Shown one piece after another: positions 1 to 15,318 of a stretch of 64,000 nucleotides of DNA. The position numbers and the translations under genes were made by a program. The DNA comes from Actinopolymorpha sp. NPDC004070. Its GTDB lineage: Bacteria > Actinomycetota > Actinomycetes > Propionibacteriales > Actinopolymorphaceae. The stretch is from the NCBI RefSeq assembly GCF_040610475.1, contig NZ_JBEXMJ010000009.1, positions 262,848 through 326,847 of the forward strand. The letters are read 5' to 3'. How positions within the stretch are numbered: position 1 is the first letter of the stretch; every line of letters starts with the position of its first letter. The notes beneath the pieces were generated by a model. That model was not told the origin of the DNA. It searched no databases and was given only the letters and a program-made list of their open reading frames with translations.

Positions 1-344
1 ACCACGGGCGACACGGCCATCGGCAGCTCGATGAGGGCTGCCAGCAGCCTTTTGCAGGGGAACTGGTGACGTACGAGTAGGAGCGAGGCCCCGACCCCGA
101 AGGCGGTGTTGGCCCCGACCGCCCAGGCTGCGACGACGACGGTCACCCGGAATGCGTGCACGGCCTCAGGGGAGGTCAGGGCTGTGACGAACGGGCCGAT
201 CCCACCACCGAAGGTGCGCCAGGCGATCAGGCCGACCGGCAGAACCAGGAGAAAGAGCAGGTAGACCAACGCGAGCGTCCGCAGCCAGTACTTCGCAGCG
301 GTCGGCTCGGACGTGCTGACTCCCGTCCCTCCACCGCTAGCCAC
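1..344 (-). CDS. cysW: Sulfate ABC transporter permease CysW, 5' part only
   Basis: Membrane permease of the sulfate/thiosulfate importer, pairing with CysT. Only the first ~114 codons are present; the gene runs off the left edge. The GTG start at 344 overlaps the cysT stop by 8 nt. After a short polar N-terminus comes a hydrophobic helix (YLLFLLVLPVGLIAW) and later the segment LIELPMAVSPVV, the usual permease pattern. Neighbours cysT and sbp are upstream in the same direction, so it should be the third gene of the operon; the ATPase CysA is presumably beyond the window. Family assignment is by context plus sequence pattern. Confidence 0.9.
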   Translation of the reverse strand, partial: MASGGGTGVSTSEPTAAKYWLRTLALVYLLFLLVLPVGLIAWRTFGGGIGPFVTALTSPEAVHAFRVTVVVAAWAVGANTAFGVGASLLLVRHQFPCKRLLAALIELPMAVSPV

Positions 345-1230
345 GGCGAGCTCGCCAGCGTTGAACGAGGTCGAGGAGGAATAGTACGAGCAGGGCGACG
401 ACCAGCAGTACGGTCGACACTGCCGCGGCGCCGATGGGATCGTCACTCTCGATCTTGCCGAAGATGTTCACTGCCGCGACCTGGGTCTTGAACGGCAGGT
501 TGCCCGAGATGAGCACCGTCGAGCCGAACTCCGCCATCGAACGCGTGAACGCGAGCGCCGTACCTGCAATCATCGCTGGTAGCAGGTTGGGCAGGATGAT
601 CCGACGGAAGGTCAGCCAGCGTCCGGCGCCCAACGACGCCGCGGCCTGCTCCATCTCCTGGTCGAGTTCGAGCAGGACCGGCTGCACGGTGCGTACGACG
701 AATGGCAGCGTCACGAACAGCAGGGCGGCCACGACGCCGGCTCGCTTGTAGGCGAGGTTGATGCCCAAGGGGCTGTGCTGGCCGTAGAGCGCCAGCAGTA
801 CCAGCCCGGCAACGATCGTGGGCAGCGCGAACGGCAGATCGATCAACGTGTCGACGATGCTCTTACCCGCAAACTGGTCGCGAACGAGTACCCAGGCGAT
901 GACCGTCCCCATCACCAGGTTCACCACAGCGACGATCACCGAGGCGCCGACCGTGAGTTGTAGCGCTGCCCAGGAGTCAGGAGTGGTGACCGACCGCCAG
1001 AAGTAGCCGGGTCCGTGTCCGGCCGAACGCCACACGACAGCAGCGAGCGGAATGAGAACGATCAGGCTGAGATAGATCAGTGCCGTGCCCAGGCCGAGCG
1101 CGGTGCCAGCCCGGCCACGAAACGCGAGCCCAGCGTTCCGGCCGGTGCCGTCGGCCCGGGCCGACGGCACCGGCTCACCCGAGGTCGGGTCTCGGGGCTT
1201 GTTCGTGAGTTCCTGGATCGACTCCGGCAC
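337..1230 (-). CDS. cysT: Sulfate ABC transporter permease CysT
   Basis: Integral membrane permease (297 aa, GTG start) of the sulfate/thiosulfate importer. Hydrophobic segments include TALIYLSLIVLIPLAAVVW near residue 48 and a C-terminal stretch rich in L and V. The cytoplasmic EAA-type loop is visible as MEQAAASLGAGRWLTFRRII, followed by LPNLLPAMIAG. The phrase DLPFALPTIVAGL is typical of CysT. Only 4 nt separate it from the sbp stop, so the two are one transcript. Length is normal for the family. Expression should follow the operator site upstream of sbp. Confidence 0.93.
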   Translation of the reverse strand: MPESIQELTNKPRDPTSGEPVPSARADGTGRNAGLAFRGRAGTALGLGTALIYLSLIVLIPLAAVVWRSAGHGPGYFWRSVTTPDSWAALQLTVGASVIVAVVNLVMGTVIAWVLVRDQFAGKSIVDTLIDLPFALPTIVAGLVLLALYGQHSPLGINLAYKRAGVVAALLFVTLPFVVRTVQPVLLELDQEMEQAAASLGAGRWLTFRRIILPNLLPAMIAGTALAFTRSMAEFGSTVLISGNLPFKTQVAAVNIFGKIESDDPIGAAAVSTVLLVVALLVLFLLDLVQRWRARRG

Positions 1231-1234
1231 GGTT

Positions 1235-2269
1235 CTACTTCTTCACCGACACGCCCTTGTCGCGTTCGATAGCCGCGACCGCGCCGTTCTGGGTGTCGAA
1301 GAACTCCTTCATCACCGTTGGCCAGCCGCCCAGATCCTTGATCGTGAAGAGGCCTGACGGAGTTGGGAACTTGTCGGCACCGGGGACGCCGTGCTCGACC
1401 GGCCGGTAACCGTTCTCGACGAAGATTTGCTGAGCCTGCTTGGAGTGAAGGAAGGCGACGAACGCTTTGGCTTCCGTCGGGTGCTTGCTCTTGCTCGTCA
1501 CAGCGACCGGGTTCTCGATGAGGATCGTCGAGTCGGGCAGGGTGTAGTCGATGGCCTGGCCGTTCTGCTGGGCGAAGATCGCCTCGTTCTCGTAGGCCAG
1601 CATGGCGTCACCTTTGCCGGAGGTGAACGTCTGCAAAGCCTTCCTGGCGGAGTCGTCCTGGACCGGCACGTTCTTGAACAACCCGTTGAGATAGGTGATC
1701 CCGGCCGCCTTGTTCGCGCCCTTGTCCGAGACGGCGCCATACCCTGCCATCACGTTCCACCGGGCCCCGCCAGAGGTGAACGGGTTGGGCGTGATCACCT
1801 CGACGCCGCGCTTGGTGAGGTCCCCCCAGGTCCGCAGGTGCTTGGGGTTGCCCTTCCGGGTGGCGATCACGACCACGGAGTCGGTCACCATACCCTTGGT
1901 CGCATCGGTGTTCCAGTCCTTCGTGACCAGGCCGGCGTCGACGAGCCGCGTCATGTCCGGCTCCAACGAGAAGGCCACGACGTCGGCGTTCAGGCCCGCC
2001 GCCACTGCGCGGCTCTGGTCGCCGGATGCCCCATAGGACTGGGTGAAGGTGACGTTCTTACCCTCGGGCGTGGCCTGGAAGGCCTTGATGATCTTCTCGT
2101 AGGCAGCCTGCGGAGTGGAGTACGCCACCAAGGACAGCGACACCTTCTTGCCTTGCGAGTCACCGCTTCCCGAGGAGGCGTTCCCGCCACCGCAGGCTGT
2201 CATCACCAAGGCGACGACGGCAGCCAGCGCAGCTGCGGCCACCTGAGTTCCGGTTTTCGATCGTGACAT
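1235..2269 (-). CDS. sbp: Sulfate-binding lipoprotein
   Basis: Extracellular substrate-binding lipoprotein (344 aa) that delivers sulfate (or thiosulfate) to CysT/CysW. The signal peptide ends in the lipobox LVMTAC with Cys26 as the lipidation site. The mature part carries SYGASGDQSRAV and LNADVVAFSLEPD, recognisable sulfate-binding-protein motifs, and NPFTSGGARWN. Start ATG at 2269 follows a GGGG-type ribosome site (AGTAGGGGCGAAC). The 17-bp CCTA-N9-TAGG site lies at 2286-2302, 16 nt upstream of the start codon, so the whole operon should respond to sulfur supply. Symbols sbp and cysP are both used for this family. Confidence 0.93.
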   Translation of the reverse strand: MSRSKTGTQVAAAALAAVVALVMTACGGGNASSGSGDSQGKKVSLSLVAYSTPQAAYEKIIKAFQATPEGKNVTFTQSYGASGDQSRAVAAGLNADVVAFSLEPDMTRLVDAGLVTKDWNTDATKGMVTDSVVVIATRKGNPKHLRTWGDLTKRGVEVITPNPFTSGGARWNVMAGYGAVSDKGANKAAGITYLNGLFKNVPVQDDSARKALQTFTSGKGDAMLAYENEAIFAQQNGQAIDYTLPDSTILIENPVAVTSKSKHPTEAKAFVAFLHSKQAQQIFVENGYRPVEHGVPGADKFPTPSGLFTIKDLGGWPTVMKEFFDTQNGAVAAIERDKGVSVKK

Positions 2270-2285: not shown

Positions 2286-2302
2286 CCTACTTTGCCGATA
2301 GG
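2286..2302 (-). promoter_or_regulatory. Sulfur-regulon operator site 1 (sbp operon)
   Basis: CCTACTTTGCCGATAGG, an exact CCTA-N9-TAGG inverted repeat, 16 nt upstream of the sbp start. Reading toward sbp, the distal arm continues TAGGTT, which fits an actinobacterial -10 (TANNNT), so a bound protein would block the polymerase. One of six sites in the first 14 kb. The regulator is unknown. Confidence 0.75.
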
Positions 2303-2462
2303 AAAAGTTAGCTCAGAGGTAGCCGTCACTCAACGAAGAAACATCCAATGGACAGGTTCGTCACGGCGCGCGACCAGTCGATGCGTAGAACCAACCCAGG
2401 CCGCCAACGGTCAGCCCTGAGTTGTGCGGGATCGCACCATTGTTCGTAGATAACCCATCTAA

Positions 2463-2479
2463 CCTAGTGAGTTAGTAGG
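2463..2479 (+). promoter_or_regulatory. Sulfur-regulon operator site 2 (FAD protein gene)
   Basis: CCTAGTGAGTTAGTAGG, exact CCTA-N9-TAGG, 36 nt before the GTG at 2515. The distal arm runs into TAGGAT, a plausible -10 hexamer, which would put transcription start close to 2487-2490. Sites 1 and 2 lie back to back between the divergent genes, about 160 bp apart. Confidence 0.72.
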
Positions 2480-2514
2480 ATTACGCGGAGCTATATGGAC
2501 ACGGGGGTGGAGGG

Positions 2515-3888
2515 GTGAGGTCGCGAGTTGTCGTAGTGGTGGGAGGCGGGTGCACCGGGGTCATGGTCGCCGTGGAGGCGCTGCAACGTACGGACGATCG
2601 TGTGGTCGTGGTCGAACCGACGTCCCGGCTGGCGCGGGGTGTGGCCTATGAGGCTGCGTCCCCTTGGCACCTGCTGAACTCGCCGGCCAAGTCGATGAGT
2701 GCCGACCCGGCCGACATGGACGGGTTCCTCATGTGGTGCCGGTCGCGGGGGATGCCGGTCCAGGCTGGAGATTTCCTGTCTCGCTTGGTGTATGGGGACT
2801 ACCTGGTGTCCGTGCTCGAGGCGGCGTCCGCGGCCGCGCCGGGAAGGCTGACAGTGCGCTCCGCGCAGGCTACCGCGACACGGCCGGGTGCGTCGGGGCA
2901 GCTCGTGGAGTTTGATCGCGGACCTGCCGTTCGTGCCGATCACGTTGTCCTCGCGCTTGGCAGTCCCCGGACGTTGTGTCCACGCACCGACGTTTGGTCG
3001 AAGGCGCCCGGCGGGCGGGTGGTTCACGTGTGCGACCCGTGGTCGCCGCAGGCGCTGGCAGCAGTGCCCAGGACCCGACCGGTCCTGCTGATGGGAACCG
3101 GCCTCACGGCGGTCGACGTGGCATTGACCTTGTTCAGGACGGGACAGAGCGCCCAGGTGACCGCGGTGTCGCGGCATGGACTCCTGCCGCGGACGCATCC
3201 CAAAGGCGAGACGAGGGCTCCGCTCATTTCCCTTCCACCCCGGCTGCCCTCGTCGCTGCCGGCCCTGATCCGGGTCGTACGCAGGTCTGCGGACCACTGC
3301 GGGGACTGGCGGGCCGTCATGGACGCCATGCGGCCGCGGCTGAACGAGGTGTGGGCCAGCCTGTCCGTCGCGGACCAGGAGCGGTTCCTCCGCCACCTGG
3401 CCCGGCACTGGGAGATACACCGGCACCGGATGGCCCCGACGGTGGCCGAGGAGCTCGCCGGCCTCCAGGCCGCCGGCGCGCTCCGGCTGCGTGCGGTAGG
3501 CCCGGACGGTCGCGATCCGCGCTCGGGGCAACGCTCGGGAGAGAGGATGACGCCGCCGGGGAAGGACGGCTTCGGTGCCACCGTCACCTGCACGGGTCCG
3601 GGTCGCCTTCCCGCCGCCGCGGACGGGCTGGTACGCACGCTGCTCGACGAGGGCCAGGCGCGGCTTGGCCCGCACGGGCTCGGCCTCGACGTGAGTCCGC
3701 ACGGCAACGTCGTCGGGCGCGACGGGCATCCGAACCCGCGGATGTGGTTGGTAGGTCCACTGCGGCGCGGCCGGTTCTGGGAGACCACGGCGGTCCCCGA
3801 GATCCGCGCGCAGGCCCGTGATCTCGTGACGGCACTGGCCTGCGGGCCGTCCGGACGAGGGCGCATTCCTGAGCTTGTCCCGCAGTAG
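2515..3888 (+). CDS. FAD/NAD(P)-binding protein of the sulfur regulon
   Basis: 457-aa flavoprotein with an N-terminal Rossmann motif (VVVVGGGCTGVMVAVEAL) and a second nucleotide-binding glycine patch, LLMGTGLTAVDVALTL, near residue 195. It fits the FAD-NAD(P)-binding family distantly related to flavin monooxygenases; the substrate is unknown. GTG at 2515 is the only plausible start. It overlaps the stop of a 7-codon ORF (ATG at 2495, MDTGVEG) that could couple translation, and lies just after GGGGGTGGAGG. The operator at 2463-2479 places it in the sulfur regulon. A second, longer protein of the same broad type is encoded at 11813-13786. It ends 78 bp from the convergent dioxygenase gene. Confidence 0.85.
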   Translation: MRSRVVVVVGGGCTGVMVAVEALQRTDDRVVVVEPTSRLARGVAYEAASPWHLLNSPAKSMSADPADMDGFLMWCRSRGMPVQAGDFLSRLVYGDYLVSVLEAASAAAPGRLTVRSAQATATRPGASGQLVEFDRGPAVRADHVVLALGSPRTLCPRTDVWSKAPGGRVVHVCDPWSPQALAAVPRTRPVLLMGTGLTAVDVALTLFRTGQSAQVTAVSRHGLLPRTHPKGETRAPLISLPPRLPSSLPALIRVVRRSADHCGDWRAVMDAMRPRLNEVWASLSVADQERFLRHLARHWEIHRHRMAPTVAEELAGLQAAGALRLRAVGPDGRDPRSGQRSGERMTPPGKDGFGATVTCTGPGRLPAAADGLVRTLLDEGQARLGPHGLGLDVSPHGNVVGRDGHPNPRMWLVGPLRRGRFWETTAVPEIRAQARDLVTALACGPSGRGRIPELVPQ

Positions 3889-3965
3889 ACAAACCAGGGA
3901 TTGTCACCTGTTCAGGCTTAGGGCGTGTCCTAGCCGCCCGCTGGTCGTCCGTACGGTCATGGACG

Positions 3966-4487
3966 TCAGGGGAGCGGATCCTGTTCGGGCTCGTCGGTCA
4001 CGTCGGTCCGTGCAACGCTCAGCCCGTTCGGGCCGTACCGGTAGTAGGTCATGCGGGTGAGGCGTGGCGCGTAGGCGTGGATGCTGATGGCGGGTGCAGC
4101 GTGGTTGTTGCGGACGTCGTGCACGTCGCCGACAGCGACCCGGCCGGTCTGCCCCGGCGTGAGGACCTGGGACGTGAGTGCTCCGCGCTCGTCGGGACGG
4201 ATTTCGTCGAGCGCGCCGGCGACCACCGTGAATGCCCCCGCGGACTCTCCGTGGTCATGCAGTTCGGTTGCCTGGGTGCTCAGCCAGGTGAGCAGCCACA
4301 CGTCAACCTGGTCGTCGGCGAACAGGCGTGCCCACCAGCGCTTCCCCGGCCGGAAGCGGACGAGCGGCCGCCATCGGGCGGTGTCGTCGGCCACCTCCTG
4401 GACGAGCTCGGCGAGCGAGGACAGGTCCTGCTGCGCGGTGCCGGAGACCATTCCGGTCGACGTCCTGGTGATCATCATCGGTTCCAT
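3966..4487 (-). CDS. Cysteine dioxygenase-type thiol dioxygenase
   Basis: 173-aa single-domain cupin of the cysteine dioxygenase family, which oxidises a thiol (cysteine, or 3-mercaptopropionate in some bacterial relatives) to the sulfinate using non-heme Fe(II). Visible: HDHGESAGAFTVVAG with iron ligands His77 and His79, a third ligand His123 in DVHDV, and the Ser135-His137-Tyr139 triad in SIHAY. Start ATG at 4487 has only a weak ribosome site; three in-frame Met codons lie close together, so a start at 4478 or 4475 is possible. The operator at 4538-4554 controls it. A cysteine-consuming enzyme in an apparent sulfur-starvation regulon is odd, so the true substrate may be another organic thiol. 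Confidence 0.88.
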   Translation of the reverse strand: MEPMMITRTSTGMVSGTAQQDLSSLAELVQEVADDTARWRPLVRFRPGKRWWARLFADDQVDVWLLTWLSTQATELHDHGESAGAFTVVAGALDEIRPDERGALTSQVLTPGQTGRVAVGDVHDVRNNHAAPAISIHAYAPRLTRMTYYRYGPNGLSVARTDVTDEPEQDPLP

Positions 4488-4537
4488 TGCAGCTGCTTGT
4501 GACTGAACTGGCCGGGTGGCCTCAACGAGCCGGGTAC

Positions 4538-4554
4538 CCTACCAGACCGATAGG
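4538..4554 (-). promoter_or_regulatory. Sulfur-regulon operator site 3 (dioxygenase gene)
   Basis: CCTACCAGACCGATAGG, exact CCTA-N9-TAGG, 51 nt upstream of the dioxygenase start. Toward the gene the distal arm extends to TAGGGT, a good TANNNT -10. Its CCTATCGG half is the same as in site 1. Confidence 0.75.
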
Positions 4555-4743
4555 GAAACTGTGATAGTCGGATGCTCCGACTCCAAACCCGGAAAGGTCT
4601 CTGATCGGCCGGCCGCTTCGGTCCGCATCGTCTTCACCGCTCCGGCGCTTGAGCTGAACAAGACCGGGTGGAGGGGAGAAGTGCGCGGGAGCAGCGGGTA
4701 CGCGGGCATCCTCATGCATCGGTGACCCTGCCGGGTCGGCGTC

Positions 4744-5856
4744 CTACTTCGAGGCAGGTCCTGACTCGGCATCGCGCTTGGCGACCTCCTCGCGGACGAT
4801 TGGAATGACGTACCGACCGAAGTCGATGGCGTCGCCGAGAAGGTCGTATCCGCGAGCGGAGAGGATGTCCACGCCCAGGTCGTAGTAGTCGAGCAGAGCC
4901 TGGGCGACCGTCTCCGGTGTCCCGACGAGGGCGTTGGAGTTGCCGGCGCCACCGGTGGCGGCCGCCGTCGGTGTCCACAGTGCTCGGTCGAAGCGCTCAC
5001 CCTCGGCCGCGACCGCGAGCAGGCGCTGTGACCCGGTGTTCTCGGGGGAGCTGAGCCGGTGCCGGCGGGTGAGCGGCGTGGTGCCACCGTTCGTACGAGC
5101 CTTGATGGTGTCCACCGTCCGGTGGGCCTTCTCCCACGCGAGTTCCTCGGTTGGCGCGATGATCGGCCGGAAGGCCACCTGGATCTTCGGGGTGTCGGTG
5201 CGGCCTGCCGCCCGCGCGGCCTGCCGGACCAGCTCGATCTGCTCGGCCGTCTGGGCGAGCGGCTCGCCCCACAGGCAGTAGATGTCCGCCTCGGCACCAC
5301 CGGCCGCGTAGGCCGCCGGTGACGAGCCACCGAAGGACACGCGAGGGCGGGGCTGCTGAACGGGGAAGACGTCGCTGACGAAGTCGGCGAAGCGGTAGTG
5401 CGGGCCCTCGTGGTCGAACGGCTCCCGGGTCGTCCAGGCCCGCTTGACGATCCGGATGTACTCCTCAGTCCGGGTGTAGCGCTCGTCCTTGGTGAGATAG
5501 TCGCCCTCGCGCTGCTGCTCGTGGTCGTTCCCACCGGTGATGAAGTGGACGGTCACCCGGCCGTCGCTGATGTGGTCCAGGGTCGCGAACGTCTTGGCGG
5601 CGAACGTCGGGATCGACAGGTTGGGCCGGTGGGCGATGAGCAACTGAATGCGCTCGGTCCGGGCGGCGATGTACGCCGCGGCCTGTGCCGGGTCCGGCGA
5701 ACCTGACCCGTACGCCGTCAGGATCCGGTCCCAGCCGTGGTCCTCGTGCGCGCGGGCCAGGCGAAGCGTGTAGTCCTTGTCGAAGCTGGCGCCGGACCGG
5801 GGCGTCGTCTCCGAGCCGTCGTTGGTCGCTGCGATACCGAGGAACTCGACCGGCAT
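4744..5856 (-). CDS. ssuD: SsuD-like FMN-dependent alkanesulfonate monooxygenase
   Basis: 370-aa LLM-class (luciferase-like) flavin-dependent oxidoreductase resembling SsuD, which uses FMNH2 and O2 to release sulfite from alkanesulfonates. Supporting motifs: AHRPNLSIPTFAAKTFATLD, HISDGRVTVHFITGGND, and FGGSSPAAYAAGGAEADIY followed by LWGEP, all at the positions found in SsuD. Length fits the family (~380 aa). Start ATG at 5856 has a strong GGGAGGGAG ribosome site. The mRNA should begin near 5896 with a 5'-terminal stem-loop (5875-5891), and the operator lies at 5901-5917. Reduced flavin could come from the reductase at 16867. Exact substrate is not determinable; other sulfonates or sulfones are possible. 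Confidence 0.85.
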   Translation of the reverse strand: MPVEFLGIAATNDGSETTPRSGASFDKDYTLRLARAHEDHGWDRILTAYGSGSPDPAQAAAYIAARTERIQLLIAHRPNLSIPTFAAKTFATLDHISDGRVTVHFITGGNDHEQQREGDYLTKDERYTRTEEYIRIVKRAWTTREPFDHEGPHYRFADFVSDVFPVQQPRPRVSFGGSSPAAYAAGGAEADIYCLWGEPLAQTAEQIELVRQAARAAGRTDTPKIQVAFRPIIAPTEELAWEKAHRTVDTIKARTNGGTTPLTRRHRLSSPENTGSQRLLAVAAEGERFDRALWTPTAAATGGAGNSNALVGTPETVAQALLDYYDLGVDILSARGYDLLGDAIDFGRYVIPIVREEVAKRDAESGPASK

Positions 5857-5874
5857 TCTCGTACTCCCTCCCAG

Positions 5875-5891
5875 GCGGGCCGACGGCCCGC
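5875..5891 (-). other. 5'-UTR stem-loop before the SsuD-like gene
   Basis: GCGGGCC and GGCCCGC form a perfect 7-bp stem with a 3-nt loop, ending 18 nt before the ATG and leaving the GGGAGGGAG ribosome site free. If transcription starts near 5896, the hairpin sits almost at the mRNA 5' end, where it could stabilise the message. Function inferred from position only. Confidence 0.5.
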
Positions 5892-5900
5892 GACCGAATC

Positions 5901-5917
5901 CCTACTATTCAACTCGG
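5901..5917 (-). promoter_or_regulatory. Sulfur-regulon operator site 4 (SsuD-like gene), one mismatch
   Basis: CCTACTATTCAACTCGG: CCTA-N9-TCGG, one base off the consensus arm. Reading toward the gene the core is AATAGTAGGGATT, nearly identical to the promoter cores of the two leader-peptide units (GATAGTAGGGAT). AATAGT is the likely -10. Confidence 0.68.
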
Positions 5918-6027
5918 AATTCGGTTCGGCCACCGCGATCCCATGGTGTGGACATGCCGGGACGCGGCAGCCGTCGAACCCGGACGGGATGTCCAGTTTC
6001 TGGGACGACGGTTGGCGTCCGGCAATT

Positions 6028-6044
6028 CCTACCTGGATAGTAGG
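6028..6044 (+). promoter_or_regulatory. Sulfur-regulon operator site 5 with promoter (ABC importer operon)
   Basis: CCTACCTGGATAGTAGG, exact CCTA-N9-TAGG. The inner GATAGT is a fair -10 and is followed, after 7 nt, by the ATG at 6049, so transcription probably starts at the ATG itself, giving a leaderless leader-peptide mRNA. Site 4 lies 110 bp away, facing the other direction. Confidence 0.75.
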
Positions 6045-6048
6045 GATC

Positions 6049-6147
6049 ATGCATTGGCGGCTCTTCCTCACCTCGCGGCGTGCCATCGATCTGATGCGGG
6101 TCGCGAGTGGTCTGTGTCCCTGCCCTCGGTGTCACAGCGACCGGTAG
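6049..6147 (+). CDS. Cysteine-rich leader peptide (32 aa)
   Basis: ATG at 6049, stop at 6145-6147. The peptide contains RRAIDLMRVASGLC and ends GLCPCPRCHSDR, with Cys codons TGT, TGC, TGT clustered near the end. It shares DLMRVASGLC with the leader at 13885-13959, and such short ORFs recur upstream of actinobacterial sulfur genes, where they are usually labelled putative leader peptides. Promoter spacing suggests a leaderless transcript. Slow translation at the Cys codons under cysteine limitation would be the signal. The 207 nt to the first structural gene contain self-complementary stretches (for example GTGCGCGCAC near 6220) that could form alternative hairpins, but no clear terminator was identified. 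Confidence 0.8.
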   Translation: MHWRLFLTSRRAIDLMRVASGLCPCPRCHSDR

Positions 6148-6354
6148 TTCTCACTGTCGTCAGTCCTTACTGTCGTACGCCACGTCACTTCGTCGACGGG
6201 GTGCGGCTCACCACCGCTGTCGTGCGCGCACCACGCGACTCGCACCTGCTCCCTCTTCCGTCCGGGTTCGTTCGGCTCCCCCAGCCCTGCTCGCCGGCTG
6301 GAGGTACGAACGTCTCGTCACCGCATTCGCCACTGTCCTACCGGAGGAACCCGG

Positions 6355-8037
6355 ATGTCCTTCCTTCCCTCACTCGCGCGCGGGGCACATACTCATGCCC
6401 CGCGCGGACACCGCCCCCTGGCAGCGCTTCTGGTTGCCCTGCTCCTGTGCGCGGTCGCGGGGTGCGGTACGTCCTCCGGTGGTTCCGGCTCGGCAGCCGG
6501 AGCGGACGCGAACGGATCTGACGCCGGCAAGCCACGCGCCGGGGGCAACGTCAACTTCGCGCTGTCGCTGGCACCGGCGTGCCCGGACCCGCAGCAGGCA
6601 ACCCAGAACATGGCCATCTACATCGCCCGCCAGGTCACCGACTCCCTGACCGACCAGGACCCGAAGACCGGAAAGATCGTGCCGTGGCTGGCGAAGTCCT
6701 GGGAGATCGGCAAGGACGGCAGGGAGTTCACGTTCCACCTGCGTGACGGGGTGACCTTCAGCGACGGCACCGCGCTCACCGCCCAGTCCGTACGGAAGAA
6801 CTTCGACTCGATCGTGCACGACCTCGGTGCGGCCGCTCCGCTGGCAAGCACCTACCTGTCCGGCTACCAGCAGACCCGGGTCTCGGACAAGCTGACGGCC
6901 ACAGTGGTCTTCGCCCAGCCGAACGCGCAGTTCCTCCAGGCGACCGCGACCCATTCGCTCGCGATCGTCGCCGACAGGACGCTCGCCACGCCACCTGAGC
7001 AGCGCTGCCAGGGAAAGGTGATCGGCTCGGGTCCGTTCGTGGTGAAGCGGTTCGTCCAGGGTGGCGACGTCGTCCTGGCCAAGCGCAAGGGGTACGCCTG
7101 GGGCTCGAAGGTCTTCGGCCACACCGGGGACGCCTACCTCGACACCATCACCTACAAGATCGTGCCGGAGTCCGGCGTGCGTGCCGGAAGCCTGGCCACC
7201 AACCAGGTGGACGCGGTCAGTGACGTGCTCCGGCAGGACGAGCCACAGATCGAGGGCGCCGGCGGGAAGGTGCTCACGATCACCAATCCGGGCGTGGTGT
7301 TCCTCCTGCAGCCGAACGTGTCCCGCGAGCCGCTGAAGGACGAGCGCGTCCGGCAGGCCGTCCAACTGGCGGTGAACCGTCAAGAGGTGGTTGACACGGT
7401 GCTCGGCAAGCACTTCAAGGCCGCCAGCAGCGTGCTGGGCCGGCGTACGCCTGGCTGGACCGACCTGTCCAGCCTGCTGAACCACGATCCGAACCGGGCG
7501 AAGGCTCTGCTCGACGCCGCCGGCTGGCGTGCCGGCCCGGGCGGCATCCGGGTCAAGGGTGGCCGGAAACTGACCATCGACGTGGTCTACTCACCCAACT
7601 TCAACGGCAGCCAGCCCGCTCTGGAGCTCGTCCAGCAGCAGCTTCGCCAGGTGGGGATCGCGCTGGAACTGCGGCAGGTCACCAACGCCCAGTCCAGTGA
7701 GATCGACCAGAGTGGTGACTTCGACACCTTCTTCTACAACATCACCCGCGCCGACCCCGACATCCTGCGCACGCAGTTCTCGACAAAGCTCGCCAACCGC
7801 GGCCGGCGCGCCCCCGACCAAGCACTCGATCCGCTTCTGGACAAGGAGGTCCGGACCCTCGACGAGGCGGGCCGGGACAAGCTCGTCGGGAAGGCGCAGC
7901 GGCTGCTGGTCGAGCACGGGTACGTGATCCCGATCTTCGAGTTGTCCCAGGCGATCGGGGTCAGCAGTCGCGTGCACGGTCTGCGGTTCGAGGCGTCGTC
8001 GCGGCTGCAGTTCTACGACACCTGGATCTCCCAGTAG
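6355..8037 (+). CDS. Peptide-type ABC transporter substrate-binding lipoprotein
   Basis: 560-aa extracellular solute-binding lipoprotein of the DppA/OppA type (SBP_bac_5). Signal peptide with lipobox ending at Cys37 (LLCAVAGC), then a Ser/Gly-rich linker. Family landmarks: LAKSWEIGKDGREFTFHLRD, GVTFSDGTALTAQSV, and KDERVRQAVQLAVNR. Start ATG at 6355 has a good GGAGGAA site. It heads a complete importer operon (two permeases, one double ATPase) behind a cysteine leader peptide and operator. This suggests the cargo is a sulfur source such as a thiol peptide or organosulfur compound; that is inference, since family members also carry peptides, nickel or opines. Confidence 0.9.
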   Translation: MSFLPSLARGAHTHAPRGHRPLAALLVALLLCAVAGCGTSSGGSGSAAGADANGSDAGKPRAGGNVNFALSLAPACPDPQQATQNMAIYIARQVTDSLTDQDPKTGKIVPWLAKSWEIGKDGREFTFHLRDGVTFSDGTALTAQSVRKNFDSIVHDLGAAAPLASTYLSGYQQTRVSDKLTATVVFAQPNAQFLQATATHSLAIVADRTLATPPEQRCQGKVIGSGPFVVKRFVQGGDVVLAKRKGYAWGSKVFGHTGDAYLDTITYKIVPESGVRAGSLATNQVDAVSDVLRQDEPQIEGAGGKVLTITNPGVVFLLQPNVSREPLKDERVRQAVQLAVNRQEVVDTVLGKHFKAASSVLGRRTPGWTDLSSLLNHDPNRAKALLDAAGWRAGPGGIRVKGGRKLTIDVVYSPNFNGSQPALELVQQQLRQVGIALELRQVTNAQSSEIDQSGDFDTFFYNITRADPDILRTQFSTKLANRGRRAPDQALDPLLDKEVRTLDEAGRDKLVGKAQRLLVEHGYVIPIFELSQAIGVSSRVHGLRFEASSRLQFYDTWISQ

Positions 8038-8067
8038 CCGTCGAAGCCGTCAAGGCCGGAGAGGTGC

Positions 8068-9018
8068 ATGAGACGTTATCTGGCGGGGCGGGCGCTGCAG
8101 GCGGTCTTCGTGTTGTGGGCCGCCTTCACGCTCACCTTCGTGGTGTTGTACCTGCTGCCGAGCGACCCGGTGAGCATCATGCTCGATCCCGGCGGCCAGG
8201 GTTCCTACGTCGATCCGGCGCAGGTGGCGGCACTGCGCGCGCGCTACCACCTCGACCAGTCGATGCCCGTGCAGTACGCCGCGATGCTGGGCGATGCCGT
8301 CCGCGGTGACTTCGGCACCTCCATCACCACCGGAGCACCCGTGCTGCTGCTCATCTTCCAGGCCCTGCCGGAGACGCTGAAGCTCGCCGGCAGCGCGCTG
8401 CTGCTCGCCCTGGTCGCGGGCGTGGGGATTGCGTTCCTCGCGACGTACACGAGGGTGGCGTGGTTGCGGCAGTTCCTGCTCGGCCTGCCGCCGCTGGGGA
8501 TCTCGGTGCCGACGTTCTGGGTGGGACTGCTGCTGGTGCAGGTGCTGTCGTTCCGGCTCCCGGTGTTTCCGGCGATGGGCAACCAGGGACTGCGAAGCCT
8601 GGTCCTGCCTGCCGTGACGCTCGCGGTGCCGACGACGGCGGTGATCGCCCAACTGCTCGCGAAGAGCCTGGACATGACCTGGGGGCAGCCGTACGTCGAG
8701 ACCGCGTGGGCGAAGGGAGCGACCCGGCTGCATGTCCAGGCCCGGCATGTCTTTCGCAACGCGGTCATCCCGACCCTCACGATGGTCGGCCTCACGGTGG
8801 GGAACCTGGTGGCGGGGTCGGTCGTGGTGGAGACGGTGTTTTCCCGCAACGGCATCGGGCGGCTCACCCAGCAGGCCGTCGAAGCGCAGGACATCCCCGT
8901 CGTGCAGGGGCTGGTGGTCTTCGCCGCGGTGGTGTTCGTGGCCACCAACCTGCTGGTCGACCTGATCTATCCGCTGGTCGATCCGCGCATCGCCCACACC
9001 CCGTCCCCGAGCCGCTGA
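8068..9018 (+). CDS. Peptide-type ABC transporter permease 1 (DppB-like)
   Basis: 316-aa inner-membrane permease with the DppB N-terminal helix and conserved [11 protein letters not shown], then [13 protein letters not shown] and GDFGTSI. The EAA loop is [20 protein letters not shown], which contacts the ATPase. About six hydrophobic helices are apparent. ATG at 8068 follows GGAGAGGTGC. It lies 30 nt after the binding-protein stop and 11 nt before the next permease, so it is co-transcribed. Confidence 0.92.
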
Positions 9019-9029
9019 CAGGAGCACAG

Positions 9030-9932
9030 GTGAGCGAAACCCAGGTCCGAGCGCTTGCTGTCGCGGACGGGCTCGCCGAACCCATCGGAAGCGTGCCCCA
9101 GGAAGAGGTCGGCCCACGCCGGTGGGGCCTACGGCGTCTGCTCGGGCAGCCCGGACTCGTCCTCGCCGTGCTGGCGATCCTGGTCGCGCTCGCCTGGGCG
9201 GCGGTTCCGGCCGTGTTCACGACGTACGACCCGATCACCGGCGTGCCGGCGCAGCGGCTGGTGCCACCGAGCGCACAGCACTGGTTCGGCACCGACCACC
9301 TGGGCCGCGACCTCTACACCAGAGTCGTCTACGGCGCCGGACTGTCGCTGCGGGCAACGGTGATCGCGGTGGCGATCGCGTTCGTCGTGGGCTCGGCCCT
9401 CGGTCTGCTGTCGGGGTTCTTCGGCGGGGTCGTGGACACCGTGCTGATGCGCCTGGTCGACGTGCTGCTGGCCGTTCCGGGGCTGCTGCTGTCGCTGGCG
9501 GTGGTCACCGCGCTCGGGTTCGGTACGACCAATGTCGCCATCGCCGTGGGGGTCGCGGCGGTGGCGAGCTTCGCCAGGGTGATGCGCGCGGAGGTGCTGC
9601 GGGTGCGCCGTGCCGCGTACGTCGAGGCAGCAGGTGCCTGCGGCGTCCGCCGGATCACGACCCTGTGGCGGCACGTCCTTCCGAACTCCACCGGCCCGGT
9701 CCTGGCGCTCGCCGCGCTGGAGTTCGGCTCGGCGATCCTCGCGGTGTCGGCGCTGAGCTTCCTCGGATTCGGTGCGAAACCGCCCACCCCCGAGTGGGGG
9801 TCCCTGGTGTCGGAAGGACGCAACTACCTGGCCACCTCCTGGTGGTACACCACGCTGCCCGGGCTGGTCGTGGTGGCGGTCGTGCTGGCGGCCAACCGGA
9901 TCGGCCGAGCGCTCGACGCCGGACGGAGATGA
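9030..9932 (+). CDS. Peptide-type ABC transporter permease 2 (DppC-like)
   Basis: 300-aa second permease of the importer. GTG at 9030 with GGAGCACAG just upstream is the only sensible start; a longer open frame upstream lies over permease 1 and is spurious. DppC signatures: [20 protein letters not shown], the EAA loop [20 protein letters not shown] followed by LPN, and [17 protein letters not shown] near the C-terminus. The stop overlaps the ATPase start in an ATGA, indicating translational coupling. Confidence 0.92.
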
Positions 9933-11713
9933 GCAGGGGGATGAGTGGGATGGGGAACCTGGCTCCGAGGCCGGACGACGCTCGGCCGCGACCGCTGCTC
10001 GAGGTGGAGAACCTCAGCGTGTCCTACCACGTGCACGGGCGTGCAGTGGGCGCAGTCCGCGACCTCAGCCTGAGCGTGAACCCGGCCGAGATCGTCGCGG
10101 TCGTCGGCGAGTCCGGGTCGGGGAAGTCGACGACCGCGCACGCCGTGATCGGCCTTCTTCCGCGCGGAGGAACGATAGACGGCGGGCAGGTCCGCTTCGC
10201 CGGTGACGACATCGTGGGCTGGTCGGAGCGGCGCATGCGGTCGGTGCGCGGTGCCCGGATCGGTCTCGTTCCGCAGGACCCTGGTGTGTCGCTGAACCCG
10301 GTGAAGCGGATCGGTGACCAGGTGGCGGAGGTGCTCAGGCTGCACGGCCGCGCCGACCGGCGTGGAGCCGCGGTGCGAGCGGTGAAGATCCTCGCCGAAG
10401 CAGGCCTGGACAGTCCCGGCGTACGGGCGCGGCAGTACCCCCACGAATTGTCCGGGGGAATGCGGCAGCGGGTGCTGATCGGCATCGCGCTCGCGTGCCG
10501 GCCGCAGCTGGTGATCGCCGACGAGCCCACCAGCGCACTCGACGTCACCGTGCAGAAGAAGGTGCTGGACCACCTGGAAGGCCTGTGCGGGGAGTTCGGA
10601 ACCGCGGTCCTGTTCATCACCCACGACCTCGGTGTGGCGGCCGACCGGGTGCACCGGATCGTCGTGATGCGGCAGGGTCAGGTCGTCGAGGAGGGGACGG
10701 CGGCCGCGATCCTGGACGACCCCCAGCATCCCTACACCCGGGAACTGATCGCCGCCGCGCCCAGCCTGGCGAGCAAGCGGCTGGTGCAGGCACGCTCGGC
10801 CCCGAGTGCCCAGACTCCTGCGTCCGCAGGTGGGTCCGCGCCCGCCGCCTCCCGCGACATCCTCCGGGTGCGGGGGCTGACCAAGGAGTTCGGCGTGCCG
10901 AGGTCGGGCAGCGATCCGGCCGGCACCTTCCGCGCGGTCGACGACGTGTCCTTCCGGATCCGCCGGGGCGAGACGTTCGGGCTGGTGGGGGAGTCCGGTT
11001 CAGGGAAGTCCACCACCGCACGGATGGTGCTACGGCTGGAGCGGCCCACCAGCGGGTCGGTGCAGTTGGACGGAGCCGACATCACGAACGTCGGGGGAAC
11101 TGCGCTGCGCCGGCTGCGGCGGCGGATGCAGCTGATCTACCAGGACCCGTACTCCTCATTGGATCCCCGGATGAACGTCGGGCAGATCGTGGCCGAACCG
11201 CTGCGCGCGTTCGGTGTCGGGGACCGGACGGCCAGGCGCCGGCGTACGGCCGAACTCCTCGACCACGTGGCGCTGGACTCGTCGATGCTGGCCCGCCGAC
11301 CGGCCGAACTGTCCGGCGGACAACGCCAGCGGGTGGCGATCGCCCGGGCCCTGGCGCTCGAGCCCGATCTCGTGGTGTGTGACGAACCGGTCTCCGCCCT
11401 CGACGTCTCCGTACAGACCCAGATCCTGCGGCTGCTGGTCAGATTGCAGGAGGAGCTGGGGTTGTCGTACCTGTTCATCTCCCACGACCTGGCCGTCGTC
11501 CGGCAGATCTCGGACCAGGTGGGGGTGATGCGTCGTGGCCGTCTCGTGGAGGTGGGACCCGTCGACGACATCTTCTCCGCGCCGAAGGACGGCTATACGC
11601 AAGAGCTGCTTGGCGCGATCCCCGGTGTCCGGGGTGCACGCGCAGGAGGACGGCCGCATGAGGTTTCTGGTGAACACCTCTATCAGCAAGGGTCCCAACC
11701 TGCTGACTGGTGA
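9929..11713 (+). CDS. Double ATP-binding protein of the importer (DppD-DppF fusion)
   Basis: 594-aa cytoplasmic ATPase with two complete nucleotide-binding domains in one chain. Domain 1: Walker [10 protein letters not shown] near residue 68, signature LSGGMRQRV, Walker [13 protein letters not shown]. Domain 2: Walker [10 protein letters not shown] near 354, signature LSGGQRQRV, Walker [14 protein letters not shown] low-complexity Ala/Ser linker joins them around residue 290. ATG at 9929 overlaps the permease stop (ATGA). It replaces the separate DppD and DppF subunits, a common arrangement in actinobacteria. The last ~19 codons overlap a small ORF starting at 11658. Confidence 0.92.
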
Positions 11714-11816
11714 CCAGCTCACCACTCAGGGCCGATTCCGCATGACCGTCGACTGGGCCGTGGCCGTGCTCAGTCTGCGGGATCGAAACCAGGAGAAGTA
11801 CGAGCTGATCCGCTAA
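11658..11816 (+). CDS. Small ORF (52 aa) at the end of the importer operon
   Basis: ATG at 11658 is preceded by GGAGGA at good spacing. The ORF overlaps the ATPase 3' end by 56 nt and continues 103 nt past it. The predicted peptide starts [18 protein letters not shown] and ends NQEKYELIR; it has no membrane helix or cysteine, and I recognise no family. Its stop overlaps the stop of the convergent flavoprotein gene by 4 nt. The ribosome site and operon position favour a real product, but it could be the stub of a truncated gene. Confidence 0.45.
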
Positions 11817-13786
11817 ACCGATCTGTCCCGGGCCGTGGACATACACGGCGCACCCTGCCGCCCGGACGGTTTGTCGGTCGGTGACGGCGCCAAGTCCGGA
11901 CCGTTGAAGTCGACCCGCAGGATTTCGCGGGCCAGCGCGTCGTTCTGGCGGAAGAACGGCGCGTTCATCCGGGGCCGGGGGAAGGCACCGCCGGCCGCGG
12001 TCCCGGCCACCCAGTAACCCGCCGCGAACAGGTCCGGTGACGGCGTCCCGTCGCCACGGACCACCCGCAGGTCGGCCGGCCTGGCCCGAAGCCGGCCGGT
12101 CGGCCGGGCGTCGCCGTTGGCGTCGATCGCGACGTGCTCGGCGGCCTCCCCGCGCGACAGCAGGCTCGCGACAAGCGGATCGGTGGTGCGGGCGACGTCC
12201 GGTCGGGGTAGCCGGGACTCCACCAGCCACCGGGCGGTGACCCGGTGGGACATGCTGGCGCTGGAGGCCACGAACGCACCACGCGCCGGGTCGGTCTCGA
12301 CCACCATGTCCGCGCCGAGGAAGTCGACGATCCCGGCCCGGGACAGCGCGAGCAGCTCCTCCAGGCGCGGAGCCGGCGGCCCGCTGGCGAAGTAGCTGAA
12401 GAACCCGTGCCACCAGCCCTCGATGTCGGCCTGGGCCCGGGTCGACAGGCACCCGGTGGCCGTCGCGGTGGCGAGTGTGCCGTAGACCACGAGCAGGGCC
12501 AGGAACGCGGCCCCGTCCGCGCTGAAGTACGGGTCGGCCCGCCGGTCGAGGTCCGCACGGATGTAGTCGCGCAGCCAGGTCCGCAGATCCTGCTGATCCA
12601 CGAAGGTCCTTCCGGCCAGCGGCCGGTCGAAAGACGCGAGGTCCAGCCTGTCCTCGCGCTTCGGGACGGCCTGGGCCACGAGCGCGGCGAGGCCGGAGTC
12701 GTCCCGGTCGGGGTCGGCGTAGCCGGCGGCGAAGTCGTCCCAGGACATCGTGACGCGGTCCGGGTGGGCGGTGAACAGCTCGCGGTAGTAGGCCCAGCAG
12801 ATCTCCCTCCACATCAGGGGAAACAGGTCGTCCCAGAAGTCGAGCGGGCCCCGCTCGGCCCGCAGCTGCTGGCAGACGTTCGCGGTGAAGAACCTCGGCG
12901 TGGGTGGCCGTCCCAGCTCATAGGAAATCTTGGCGTGGTACGGAACACCCCGGCCGGAACCGACCACGAGCCGGGGTTCACGCCCCGACGGAACGTAGGC
13001 GAGCTCGCCGTCCCGGCGTTCGAACCGCCCGCCGCGCCCCTGGCCGAGCAACACCATCAGGTCGACGAACGCCAGACCGAACCCGCGCAGCAGCACGGTT
13101 TCACCGGCAGGAATGTGGTCCAGGTCGAGGTCGGCGGTGTAGGCGGCCGGCAGGTACCCCAGTCCGTGCCGCTCGGCGAACGAGCCGAGCCGCTGCTCCT
13201 CCAGGGTGGGCCTGGCGTCAAGGTGGCCTTGCGTGAGGACGATCCGGTCGACCGTGAGCTGGTCGCTCCCGCCGTGCAGGCTCACCAGGTGCCGCCCGGT
13301 GCCCGGCTCAGGCGTCACGTCGACGGCATGGGTCGGGTGCACGACGATGCCGACCCGCTCCGGCGCGCTCGCCCGGACCCGTTCGAAAACCCAACCCAGG
13401 TAGGCACTTTGCAACCTGCGGGTCGCGAACGAACCAGGGCCCAGACGCCGGGCCTCCGCACCCACGGGAGAGCCGGCCGGGAGCAGCCGGCCGACGTCTC
13501 GCACCCACTCCCACAGGGATGGCCCGGCCACCACGGGGCCCTCGCACCGCACGGAGTCGTCCGGGAACGTCGTCACGTCCGCGGTGGTGGAGTTCATCCA
13601 CAGCAGCGGCGACTGGTCATGGCGCCAGACCCGGCCTCCACCCGGCGGGTGCGGGTCGACGAGATGGACCTCCAGCCGGCGGCCGGGTTCGAGCAGGTCG
13701 ACGTTGGCCACCAGGCGTTCGAGTACGGACGTGCCGCGAGGACCGCCCCCGACTATGCACACCACGAGCGGGCGCTGAGCATGCAT
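11813..13786 (-). CDS. Large FAD/NAD(P)-binding protein of the sulfur regulon
   Basis: 657-aa flavoprotein with an N-terminal FAD motif, CIVGGGPRGTSVLERLVA, followed by LEVHLVDPHPPGGGRVW, and a middle phrase VLLRGFGLAFVDLMVLLGQG that looks like a second nucleotide-binding patch. It resembles the FAD-NAD(P)-binding family; a reaction cannot be assigned. Start ATG at 13786 is chosen because GGAAGGAGGCGC precedes it; an in-frame GTG at 13804 would add six residues. It lies 98 nt downstream of a leader peptide (13885-13959) and the shared operator at 13964-13980, so it is probably subject to both repression and attenuation. It stands alone in its direction and converges on the importer operon. 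Confidence 0.82.
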   Translation of the reverse strand: MHAQRPLVVCIVGGGPRGTSVLERLVANVDLLEPGRRLEVHLVDPHPPGGGRVWRHDQSPLLWMNSTTADVTTFPDDSVRCEGPVVAGPSLWEWVRDVGRLLPAGSPVGAEARRLGPGSFATRRLQSAYLGWVFERVRASAPERVGIVVHPTHAVDVTPEPGTGRHLVSLHGGSDQLTVDRIVLTQGHLDARPTLEEQRLGSFAERHGLGYLPAAYTADLDLDHIPAGETVLLRGFGLAFVDLMVLLGQGRGGRFERRDGELAYVPSGREPRLVVGSGRGVPYHAKISYELGRPPTPRFFTANVCQQLRAERGPLDFWDDLFPLMWREICWAYYRELFTAHPDRVTMSWDDFAAGYADPDRDDSGLAALVAQAVPKREDRLDLASFDRPLAGRTFVDQQDLRTWLRDYIRADLDRRADPYFSADGAAFLALLVVYGTLATATATGCLSTRAQADIEGWWHGFFSYFASGPPAPRLEELLALSRAGIVDFLGADMVVETDPARGAFVASSASMSHRVTARWLVESRLPRPDVARTTDPLVASLLSRGEAAEHVAIDANGDARPTGRLRARPADLRVVRGDGTPSPDLFAAGYWVAGTAAGGAFPRPRMNAPFFRQNDALAREILRVDFNGPDLAPSPTDKPSGRQGAPCMSTARDRSV

Positions 13787-13884
13787 TGCCGCGCCTCCTT
13801 CCACGAAAGGTGCCTGCTGTCAGGTCCAGGTCTGCCGTCAGGCCCTGGTTCTTCGTCAGGTCCGCTGCCGGCCGGTGCGGAAGG

Positions 13885-13959
13885 TCAGCGACACAGGCCG
13901 CTGGCCACACGCATCAGGTCGACGACGCGGCGAATCGTGAGCAGGAGAAAGCGTGGCAC
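13885..13959 (-). CDS. Leader peptide (24 aa) of the large flavoprotein gene
   Basis: GTG start at 13959, stop at 13885. The peptide contains RRVVDLMRVASGLC and ends at LCR, sharing DLMRVASGLC with the leader at 6049. Promoter layout is the same as for that leader: GATAGT, 7 nt, then the start codon, pointing to a leaderless transcript. It has one Cys codon, the second-last sense codon, so if it senses cysteine it does so with a weaker stall than the 6049 leader. Confidence 0.75.
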   Translation of the reverse strand: MPRFLLLTIRRVVDLMRVASGLCR

Positions 13960-13963
13960 AATC

Positions 13964-13980
13964 CCTACTATCGGACTAGG
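13964..13980. promoter_or_regulatory. Sulfur-regulon operator site 6, shared by divergent units
   Basis: CCTACTATCGGACTAGG, exact CCTA-N9-TAGG, immediately upstream of the leader peptide at 13959 (minus) and 120 nt upstream of the monooxygenase gene at 14101 (plus). On the minus strand GATAGT inside the site is the -10. It is the only site in the gap between the divergent units. Confidence 0.75.
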
Positions 13981-14100: not shown

Positions 14101-15318
14101 ATGCCAGCTCCGCTCCCACTGCACCTCGCGGTGGCCCTCGAGGGTGCCGGGTGGCATCCGTCGGCCTGGCGCGATCCGCGGGCACGTGCCGACGAACTCC
14201 TCACCCCGGCGTACTGGACCGATCTGGTCCGCGAAGCGGAGACCGGCACGCTGGACTTTGTCACCATCGAGGACTCCCTCGGCATCCAGACGACCAGCCC
14301 CGACGGGCCGGACGAACGGCTCGACCAGGTGCGCGGACGGCTGGACGCGGTGCTGGTCGCCGCCCGGGTGGCCCCGCTCACCAGGGGAGTGGGGGTGGTG
14401 CCGGTGGCGACCGTCACCCACACCGAGCCGTTCCACGTCTCCAAGGCGATCGCGACGCTGGACTACGTGAGTGGTGGCCGGGCCGGCTGGCAGGTGCGGG
14501 TGTCCCCGCGCCAGTGGGAGGCCGAACTCTTCGGGCGCCGGACGGTTCCTGCGATCCAGGGAACCGACCTCGACGCGCCGGAAGCGGCAGCGGTTCTGGA
14601 GGACCTGTTCGACGAGGCCGCCGACCACGTGGAGGTCGTACGCCGGCTCTGGGACAGCTGGGAGGACGACGCGGAGATCCGGGACGTCGCCACCGGCCGG
14701 TTCGTGGACCGGGACAAGCTGCACTACATCGACTTCGAGGGCCGCTGGTTCAGCGTGCGGGGGCCCTCCATCGTCCCGCGCCCGCCGCAGGGGCAGCCGC
14801 TGGTCACCGCGCTGGCGCACCGCTCGGTCGCCTACCGGCTGGCCGCGAAGGCCGTCGACGTGGTGTTCGTGACCGCCCATGACGCGGAGGATGCCGGTCG
14901 GATCGTCGCCGAGGTACGCCGGGAGCAGGCCGCGGCCGGGCGGGAGGACGAACTCCTGCACGTGTTCGGTGACCTGGTGGTCTTCCTGGCCGACGACGAG
15001 CACTCGGCGGCCGAGCGCAAGGCGCACCTGGACGCCCTGTCGGACGCGGACTTCACCAGTGACGCGCCCGTCTTCGTCGGCACACCGGCTGCGCTCGCCG
15101 ACCGGCTGGAGGACCTTCGGTGGGCGGGGCTGACCGGCTTCCGGCTGCGGCCGGGAACGCTTCCACACGACCTGGAGGCGATCACCCGCGGGCTGGTGCC
15201 CGAGCTGAGACGCCGGGGGATCTTCCGCGAGAGCTACGACGCGTCCACTCTCCGCGGGCGGTTGGGCCTCGAGCGTCCGGCCAACCGATACGCCGCCACG
15301 ACCGGGGGAGCCCGATGA
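14101..15318 (+). CDS. LLM-class flavin-dependent monooxygenase 1
   Basis: 405-aa luciferase-like flavin monooxygenase of the NtaA/SnaA/DszA type. Landmarks: FVTIEDSLGIQ (strand 2), VGVVPVATVTHTEPFHVSKAIATLD, and YVSGGRAGWQVRVSP; the middle has HVEVVRRLWDSWEDDA and the C-terminus a GTPAALADRLEDL motif. ATG at 14101 has GGAGGCAG upstream; the longer open frame is not supported. It heads a four-gene operon (second monooxygenase, 53-aa ORF, flavin reductase) divergent from the large flavoprotein gene. Probable role: oxidative C-S cleavage of an organosulfur compound with FMNH2 from the reductase. Substrate unknown. Confidence 0.88.
   Translation: MPAPLPLHLAVALEGAGWHPSAWRDPRARADELLTPAYWTDLVREAETGTLDFVTIEDSLGIQTTSPDGPDERLDQVRGRLDAVLVAARVAPLTRGVGVVPVATVTHTEPFHVSKAIATLDYVSGGRAGWQVRVSPRQWEAELFGRRTVPAIQGTDLDAPEAAAVLEDLFDEAADHVEVVRRLWDSWEDDAEIRDVATGRFVDRDKLHYIDFEGRWFSVRGPSIVPRPPQGQPLVTALAHRSVAYRLAAKAVDVVFVTAHDAEDAGRIVAEVRREQAAAGREDELLHVFGDLVVFLADDEHSAAERKAHLDALSDADFTSDAPVFVGTPAALADRLEDLRWAGLTGFRLRPGTLPHDLEAITRGLVPELRRRGIFRESYDASTLRGRLGLERPANRYAATTGGAR

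Follow-up and report, generated by a model that had tools for sequence, protein, structure and literature searches.

CymR, a regulator of the Rrf2 family, takes O-acetylserine as its signal. In B. subtilis and S. aureus it controls sulfonate and cysteine genes, with CysK acting as co-repressor (PMC2940859, PMC3828012). Sulfur genes of actinobacteria are known to be regulated by McbR, CysR and SsuR in Corynebacterium and by NdgR in Streptomyces coelicolor (PMC2580772, PMC4340878), all of which belong to other protein families than the Rrf2 protein considered here. A CymR/Rrf2-like protein of Rhodococcus qingshengii, IGTS8_peg394, was proposed as a global sulfur regulator on the basis of proteome data and its similarity to CymR; its gene is said there to have no sulfur neighbours, and the passages that describe it give no operator or regulon (PMC8557817). 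For mycobacteria, a passage of a 2011 review says that no counterparts of the regulators CysB and Cbl had yet been identified (PMC3141025). Cysteine leader peptides ahead of actinobacterial cys operons were predicted in 2005 (Seliverstov, PMC1262725). In titles and the beginnings of abstracts, with subscription journals mostly outside the search, no description of the operator reported below or of an actinobacterial Rrf2 sulfur regulon was found, which is weak evidence of absence.

The window, i.e. the whole 64-kb stretch of Actinopolymorpha DNA that was analysed, opens on an island of sulfur genes that reaches from beyond the window start, where a second sulfate permease and an ATPase are encoded (L022), to about 17.4 kb. 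Genes were called with a codon-usage script instead of a standard gene finder, family tests were run on those calls, and some genes were named from the resemblance of their N-termini alone. A pattern scan of the window confirmed the six predicted sites with the arms CCTA and TAGG (fuller form CCTAYYNNNNNRRTAGG), of which 2286, 2463, 4538, 6028 and 13964 are exact and 5901 has one mismatch. All six are candidate operators, to which no strand was assigned. The first, CCTACTTTGCCGATAGG (2286..2302), belongs to a sulfate ABC transporter unit on the minus strand with a sulfate-binding protein (1235..2269, -; TIGR00971, 188 bits, cutoff 155.5) and the permease CysT (337..1230, -; TIGR02139, 289 bits, cutoff 246), followed by the second permease and the ATPase beyond the window. 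CCTAGTGAGTTAGTAGG (2463..2479) lies upstream of a gene for an FAD/NAD(P)-binding protein (2563..3888, +; PF13454, tested from 2515), CCTACCAGACCGATAGG (4538..4554) upstream of a cysteine-dioxygenase-like gene (3966..4487, -; PF05995), and the imperfect site CCTACTATTCAACTCGG (5901..5917) upstream of a luciferase-like monooxygenase (4744..5856, -) that is nearest to the alkanesulfonate monooxygenase SsuD and scores under the cutoff of the SsuD model. CCTACCTGGATAGTAGG (6028..6044) is followed by a leader-peptide-like ORF and a peptide-type ABC transporter, composed of a family-5 solute-binding protein, two permeases and an ATPase with two ABC domains (6355..11713, +). CCTACTATCGGACTAGG (13964..13980) is common to two divergent units and separates another FAD/NAD(P)-binding protein (11813..13786, -; PF13454) from a luciferase-like monooxygenase (14101..15318, +; under all cutoffs, with a PF00296 match on a longer call). 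An NtaA/DmoA family monooxygenase (15315..16712, +; TIGR03860, 405 bits, cutoff 279.7) and a flavin reductase-like protein (16867..17436, +) follow. The peptide-type transporter and both FAD proteins are linked to sulfur by the company their genes keep and not by their families.

The claim that every one of seven promoters carries a site is confirmed, with one correction. Since the 13964 site sits between two divergent genes, six sites are enough for seven units. The flavin reductase gene at 16867 lacks a site; its orthologues in three related genomes (G005, G006, G007) adjoin one. Contrary to the original prediction, regulator genes are present in the window, though outside the island, namely an AraC-like protein (23894-24871) and a histidine kinase/LuxR-type response-regulator pair (54943-56990). 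Other histidine kinases were also seen outside the island among 30 of the window's further gene calls that were scanned.

The 9-bp spacer is fixed as described, and among spacers from 3 to 15 it is the only one with exact CCTA..TAGG pairs in the 64-kb window. The 6.37-Mb genome contains 9 exact sites, 5 of them in the island, and the earlier figure of one occurrence per 65 kb by chance accordingly overstates chance. A cluster of 5 of 9 sites within 11.7 kb did not arise in any of 200,000 random placements (clustering bound 7e-9). Spacer-7 sites also number 9 in this genome. With one mismatch allowed, the window holds 10 matches compared to a shuffle mean of 5.4, and 7 of 100 shuffles reach 10; because this count is not decisive, weight was put on the exact sites, their clustering and their conservation.

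A genome scan had been named as a test that could overturn the prediction. Besides the five of nine exact sites in the island, it revealed sulfur genes at two of 15 intergenic places with one mismatch. The pattern CCTAYYN5RRTAGG with one mismatch occurs at 32 places in the genome, and the 27 outside the island were all placed (12 coding, 15 intergenic). One of the two sulfur genes encodes a second SsuD-like monooxygenase (C11:18072), whose upstream site has the second best score of the weight matrix among intergenic places outside the island (17.5). The other is the TauE/SafE permease gene tauE (C5:336366), with a site of score 12.1 that ends 25 bases ahead of the start. Both sites were outside the training set of the matrix. 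The remaining 13 intergenic places have no evident sulfur gene, and some of them score like the tauE site (12.5, 12.1 and 12.0).

The four exact sites outside the island (on contigs C1, C22, C13 and C16) were left out of the regulon. The C1 site lies at the end of a coding gene and the C22 site inside one. The C13 site has a gene of the penicillinase-repressor family (BlaI-type, PF03965) on one side and PAP2/VTT-domain genes on the other; it is kept in four genomes and is probably the BlaI-type repressor's own operator, the operator box of such repressors being TACA/TGTA. CCTACAGTCNTTGTAGG-like palindromes between these genes were found at L018 6223, L093 5378, L115 5609 and L128 5351, with a family test in the first of the four genomes. 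The C16 site, upstream of a ROK-family gene without evident sulfur link, has the highest score of all intergenic sites outside the island (18.4). CCTA-N9-TAGG sites with a TAATTRGA-like half are found upstream of a ROK-family gene in three genomes (L019 6074, family-tested; L097 5654; L116 5474).

Related species keep the sites; lack of conservation there had been named as the other result that could overturn the prediction. Among the 57 exact sites in seven genomes of the same family (G001-G007), all read in context, 18 lie beside sulfur genes, none of them more than 461 bases away. Orthologues of island genes carry an exact site in G002, G003 and G004. In G003 (L118), the 2286 site is found with almost the same and the 2463 site with the same sequence, and the orthologue of the cysteine-dioxygenase-like gene has a site upstream too. 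The gene pair around 13964 likewise has the site between both genes in G004 (L096) and G002 (L108). Exact sites further accompany tauE (G001, G004, G005), the flavin reductase gene (upstream in G005 and G007, 3' of the gene in G006), an SsuE-like FMN reductase (G005, G006), luciferase-like monooxygenases most similar to the SsuD-like one of the island (G002, G005, G007), a fused FMN-reductase/FAD protein (G007) and a sulfatase-like gene that scores under the models' cutoffs (G002). The other 39 sites have no sulfur assignment; nine are coding, three are at BlaI-type genes, two at ROK genes, two at a small conserved gene and 23 elsewhere. At the small conserved gene, the same palindrome CCTAGACTGCAGCTAGG occurs 43-44 bases upstream in two genomes (L083 5476, L113 5525).

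To identify the regulator, the own genome was searched with PF02082. One of eight matches exceeds the family cutoff, a gene on another contig than the island (C17:67743-68192). It encodes a protein of 150 residues (P0001) that is a member of the Rrf2 superfamily (PF02082, 124.9 bits, cutoff 30; TIGR00738, 124.5 bits, cutoff 73.3). Its best structure match is the BadM/Rrf2 protein 4cic, and the solved CymR structures 3t8r (E 1.8e-21) and 2y75 (E 3e-18) are matched as well. It shares the family with CymR, which has sulfonate and cysteine genes under its control, but comes from another phylum and reaches 96.4 bits with the CymR equivalog NF047409 (cutoff 195); its putative regulon is made up of genes for the uptake of sulfate and organosulfur compounds, for flavin monooxygenases and for TauE. 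IscR, NsrR and RirA, in contrast, are Fe-S Rrf2 regulators, and NsrR and RirA have three cysteine ligands, whereas the Actinopolymorpha protein contains no cysteine at all. Both this protein and IGTS8_peg394 are proposed sulfur regulators, likened to each other by description, with an operator and a promoter list given for the present one alone as far as the published passages on IGTS8_peg394 go. Of 38 genomes in the order, 30 have a match to this protein, counting the own genome, and 97 of 110 rrf2 loci, some genomes being counted twice, lack cysteine in the aligned part. By comparative linkage, the C17 protein is the likely regulator of the island.

Within the order, tauE is present in 23 genomes, and its promoters were sorted by the Rrf2 type of the genome. 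With an E-type ('KFLE/KYLE') Rrf2 protein, 10 of 10 tauE promoters carry a site whose arms have no mismatch or a single one, ending 21-39 bases ahead of the start; these ten promoters are not independent, as they come from just two families (eight from the own family, two from f2). Among the 13 others, with the 'GFLQ' type (12) or no rrf2 match (1), a one-mismatch match is found once, at -9. Shuffled tauE upstream regions match in 993 of 46,000 cases.

An alignment-based scan of species genomes gave at least 553 Rrf2 relatives, the best 80 of which were used, 78 of them outside Actinopolymorpha. Genes for TauE or sulfate transport lie within 10 kb of rrf2 at 31 of these 78 loci, mostly from Actinomycetota (tauE orthologue at 14, sulfate ABC genes at 17), and at four more a cysteine-dioxygenase-like, FAD or monooxygenase homologue is encoded; as many contigs are short, such counts are lower bounds. 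The 78 loci contain ten exact CCTA-N9-TAGG sites in eight loci, all intergenic, compared to four with spacer 8, two with spacer 11 and none with any of the remaining eight spacers in the range 4-14. Half of the ten occupy the intergenic space immediately 3' of rrf2. The eight loci, again among the best 80 of at least 553, are from Streptomyces (L172, L177, L214), Dactylosporangium (L145, L211), Microlunatus (L176), a Propionibacteriaceae bin (L185) and a Frankiales bin (L159). The order rrf2, site, tauE is found at L176, L185 and L214 and also in genome G008 (L137); at L177 and L211 the site is followed by a lipoprotein taken as a solute-binding protein from its N-terminus. The weight matrix trained on the own family finds 12 sites scoring at least 14 at the rrf2 loci of this sample (best 80 of at least 553), all 12 intergenic; of 200 permuted matrices, 14 reach as many matches at score 14 and one does so at 17. 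On a Streptomyces plasmid (L222), rrf2 adjoins a solute-binding protein and an annotated leader peptide, with three matrix matches; the other two of three plasmid loci looked at (L221, L223) have no match of 11 or more. A search with a DszA-like protein had Streptomyces and proteobacterial plasmids as its first matches. Within Actinopolymorpha, rrf2 is not linked to the island, and in the eight genomes of the own family the surroundings of rrf2, out to about 1.5 kb, contain no site even when one mismatch is allowed.

Outside the order, six of the 14 rrf2-linked tauE promoters from the best 80 of at least 553 relatives carry a site that is exact or has a single mismatch (L165, L170, L176, L185, L188, L214). 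Four Janibacter and four Cellulomonas tauE promoters have at best two arm mismatches despite an E-type Rrf2 protein, and show other common elements. In Janibacter (L157, L158, L163, L183) a common GTTACTTGACC[CG]ATAAG element lies upstream of tauE, next to rrf2. None of 16 upstream regions of sulfate-binding protein genes beside rrf2, three of them incomplete, reaches one mismatch, and exact sites are absent from all 17 sulfate-linked loci (both among the best 80 of at least 553). Where sites are missing outside the order, either the operator has changed together with the protein or the genes are under other control. Spacer-8 palindromes (CCTATCGATCGATAGG and similar) close to rrf2, at L189 5461 and 5516, L205 3321 and L216 7669, are possibly variant operators.

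Two leader-peptide-like ORFs follow the sites of the island. MHWRLFLTSRRAIDLMRVASGLCPCPRCHSDR (6049..6147, +) and MPRFLLLTIRRVVDLMRVASGLCR (13885..13959, -, GTG start) have their first base at the fifth position after the 6028 and the 13964 site, respectively, and their cysteine-final ends read RRAIDLMRVASGLCPCPRCHSDR and RRVVDLMRVASGLCR. Similar ORFs follow sites in five stretches of the same family (L084, L085, L096, L131, L136). Like the leaders predicted by Seliverstov (PMC1262725), at least as described in the passages on them, these ORFs are short, contain cysteine codons close to the stop and directly precede sulfur genes; unlike them, the window ORFs start 5 bases past an operator, end in [D]LMRVASGLC and precede organosulfur-type genes. 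In five tauE upstream regions of family f3 (L246, L247, L248, L250, L251), where the site is absent, a leader-like end RRRHVDLLRVNS[AS][GS]C is encoded.

Taken together, the sulfur regulon is very likely real. That one repressor governs its genes, as originally predicted, is the best reading of the clustering, the relatives and the comparative linkage, with repression itself inferred. The explanation as a whole, in which CCTA-N9-TAGG is the operator of a cysteine-free, CymR-like Rrf2 repressor and a leader peptide adds a further check, is probable. While reduced sulfur is plentiful, an Rrf2 dimer would cover the -10 or start region and shut off sulfate uptake, organosulfur uptake, the flavin monooxygenases, the cysteine-dioxygenase-like enzyme and the TauE/SafE permease; upon sulfur starvation it would release the operator. 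This direction, repression under sulfur sufficiency, is suggested by the protein family and the gene content. At two island promoters, the cysteine-ending leader peptide would form a second, translation-coupled check on a probably leaderless transcript. More tentatively, and with slightly less than even confidence, the E-type, mostly cysteine-free Rrf2 protein may be the ancestral master regulator of sulfur genes in a large part of Actinomycetota. It would control the uptake of sulfate, the assimilatory reduction of sulfite and the scavenging of organosulfur compounds via CCTA-N9-TAGG and drifting variants, with changes of the recognition helix tracking those of the operator, and would work in tandem with cysteine leader peptides right behind the operator.

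A site at sulfur-scavenging promoters, with rrf2 near such genes in many species, provides a testable sulfur-regulator candidate for soil Actinobacteria. With the operator defined, the regulator gene named and the promoters listed, the mycobacterial and Rhodococcus question would become a direct binding test. The system would also offer a way to approach sulfate repression in strains that degrade organosulfur compounds, and an example in which an operator and a leader peptide work together.

The operator might be real but bound by another regulator, e.g. a ROK protein, with rrf2 near sulfur genes for some other reason. SsuR and CysR of C. glutamicum are ROK-type sulfur regulators (PMC2580772), the site of matrix score 18.4 in the own genome precedes a ROK-family gene, and sites in G003 and G004 precede a gene with nearly the same N-terminus. 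However, neither the CysR core box (TGAAtnnAAt) nor the NdgR box occurs as an exact pattern on either strand within 100 bases of any of the six sites in the island, the TAATTRGA-like half common to the three ROK-gene sites is absent from the island sites, and the gene next to the ROK gene encodes a xylose-isomerase-like protein. Moreover, the presence of the tauE site follows the Rrf2 type within the order, and sites adjoin rrf2 in several families. Another regulator is therefore considered unlikely, and the Rrf2 protein is preferred.

It is less likely still that the motif is a promoter element, made up of an extended -10 and the start region. By eye, plausible -10 elements are located inside the sites at 5901 (GAATAGT), 6028 and, on the minus strand, 13964 (GATAGT), 2463 (GTTAGT) and, on the plus strand, 13964 (TACTAT), and the remaining sites are closely downstream of a plausible -10 on the reading strand. 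Several tauE promoters show a TAnnnT box a few bases upstream of the site, so that the site would cover the start. Such positions would suit a promoter element, but both arms are kept as an inverted repeat of fixed spacing even where the -10 seems to be upstream, and the element varies with Rrf2 type within the order.

Across 148 genomes of the class, the bare motif is not enriched, and a genome-wide excess was dropped as proof, since spacers 7 and 11 are equally common. In 97 genomes with rrf2, spacer 9 is found 265 times compared to 275 for spacer 11 and 341 for spacer 7; in the 51 others, the counts are 89, 113 and 150. Chance palindromes, over-read in a sulfur-rich region, would fit these control-level counts and the one-mismatch count of the window that 7 of 100 shuffles reach, but are the most improbable explanation, already disfavoured by the clustering and the tauE promoter comparison, and further by the conservation at orthologous promoters and by the fact that the motif led to more sulfur genes in the own genome and in genus g45.

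Genus g45 has 35 spacer-9 sites compared to 12 and 10 for control spacers, a post hoc excess because the genus was picked after the excess was seen. Twenty of the 35 sites, mostly chosen as consensus-like, were examined, and ten of them have no evident sulfur gene. Six (in six genomes) lie 10-52 bases from a small lipoprotein-like gene and 289-303 bases from a sulfite/nitrite reductase gene, three are 33-36 bases upstream of an SsuE-like FMN reductase and one is 153 bases upstream of a flavin reductase. One member of each group was family-tested and the rest were named from near-identical N-termini. In two g45 genomes (L331, L333), a site is found 85 bases 3' of an acyltransferase-like gene.
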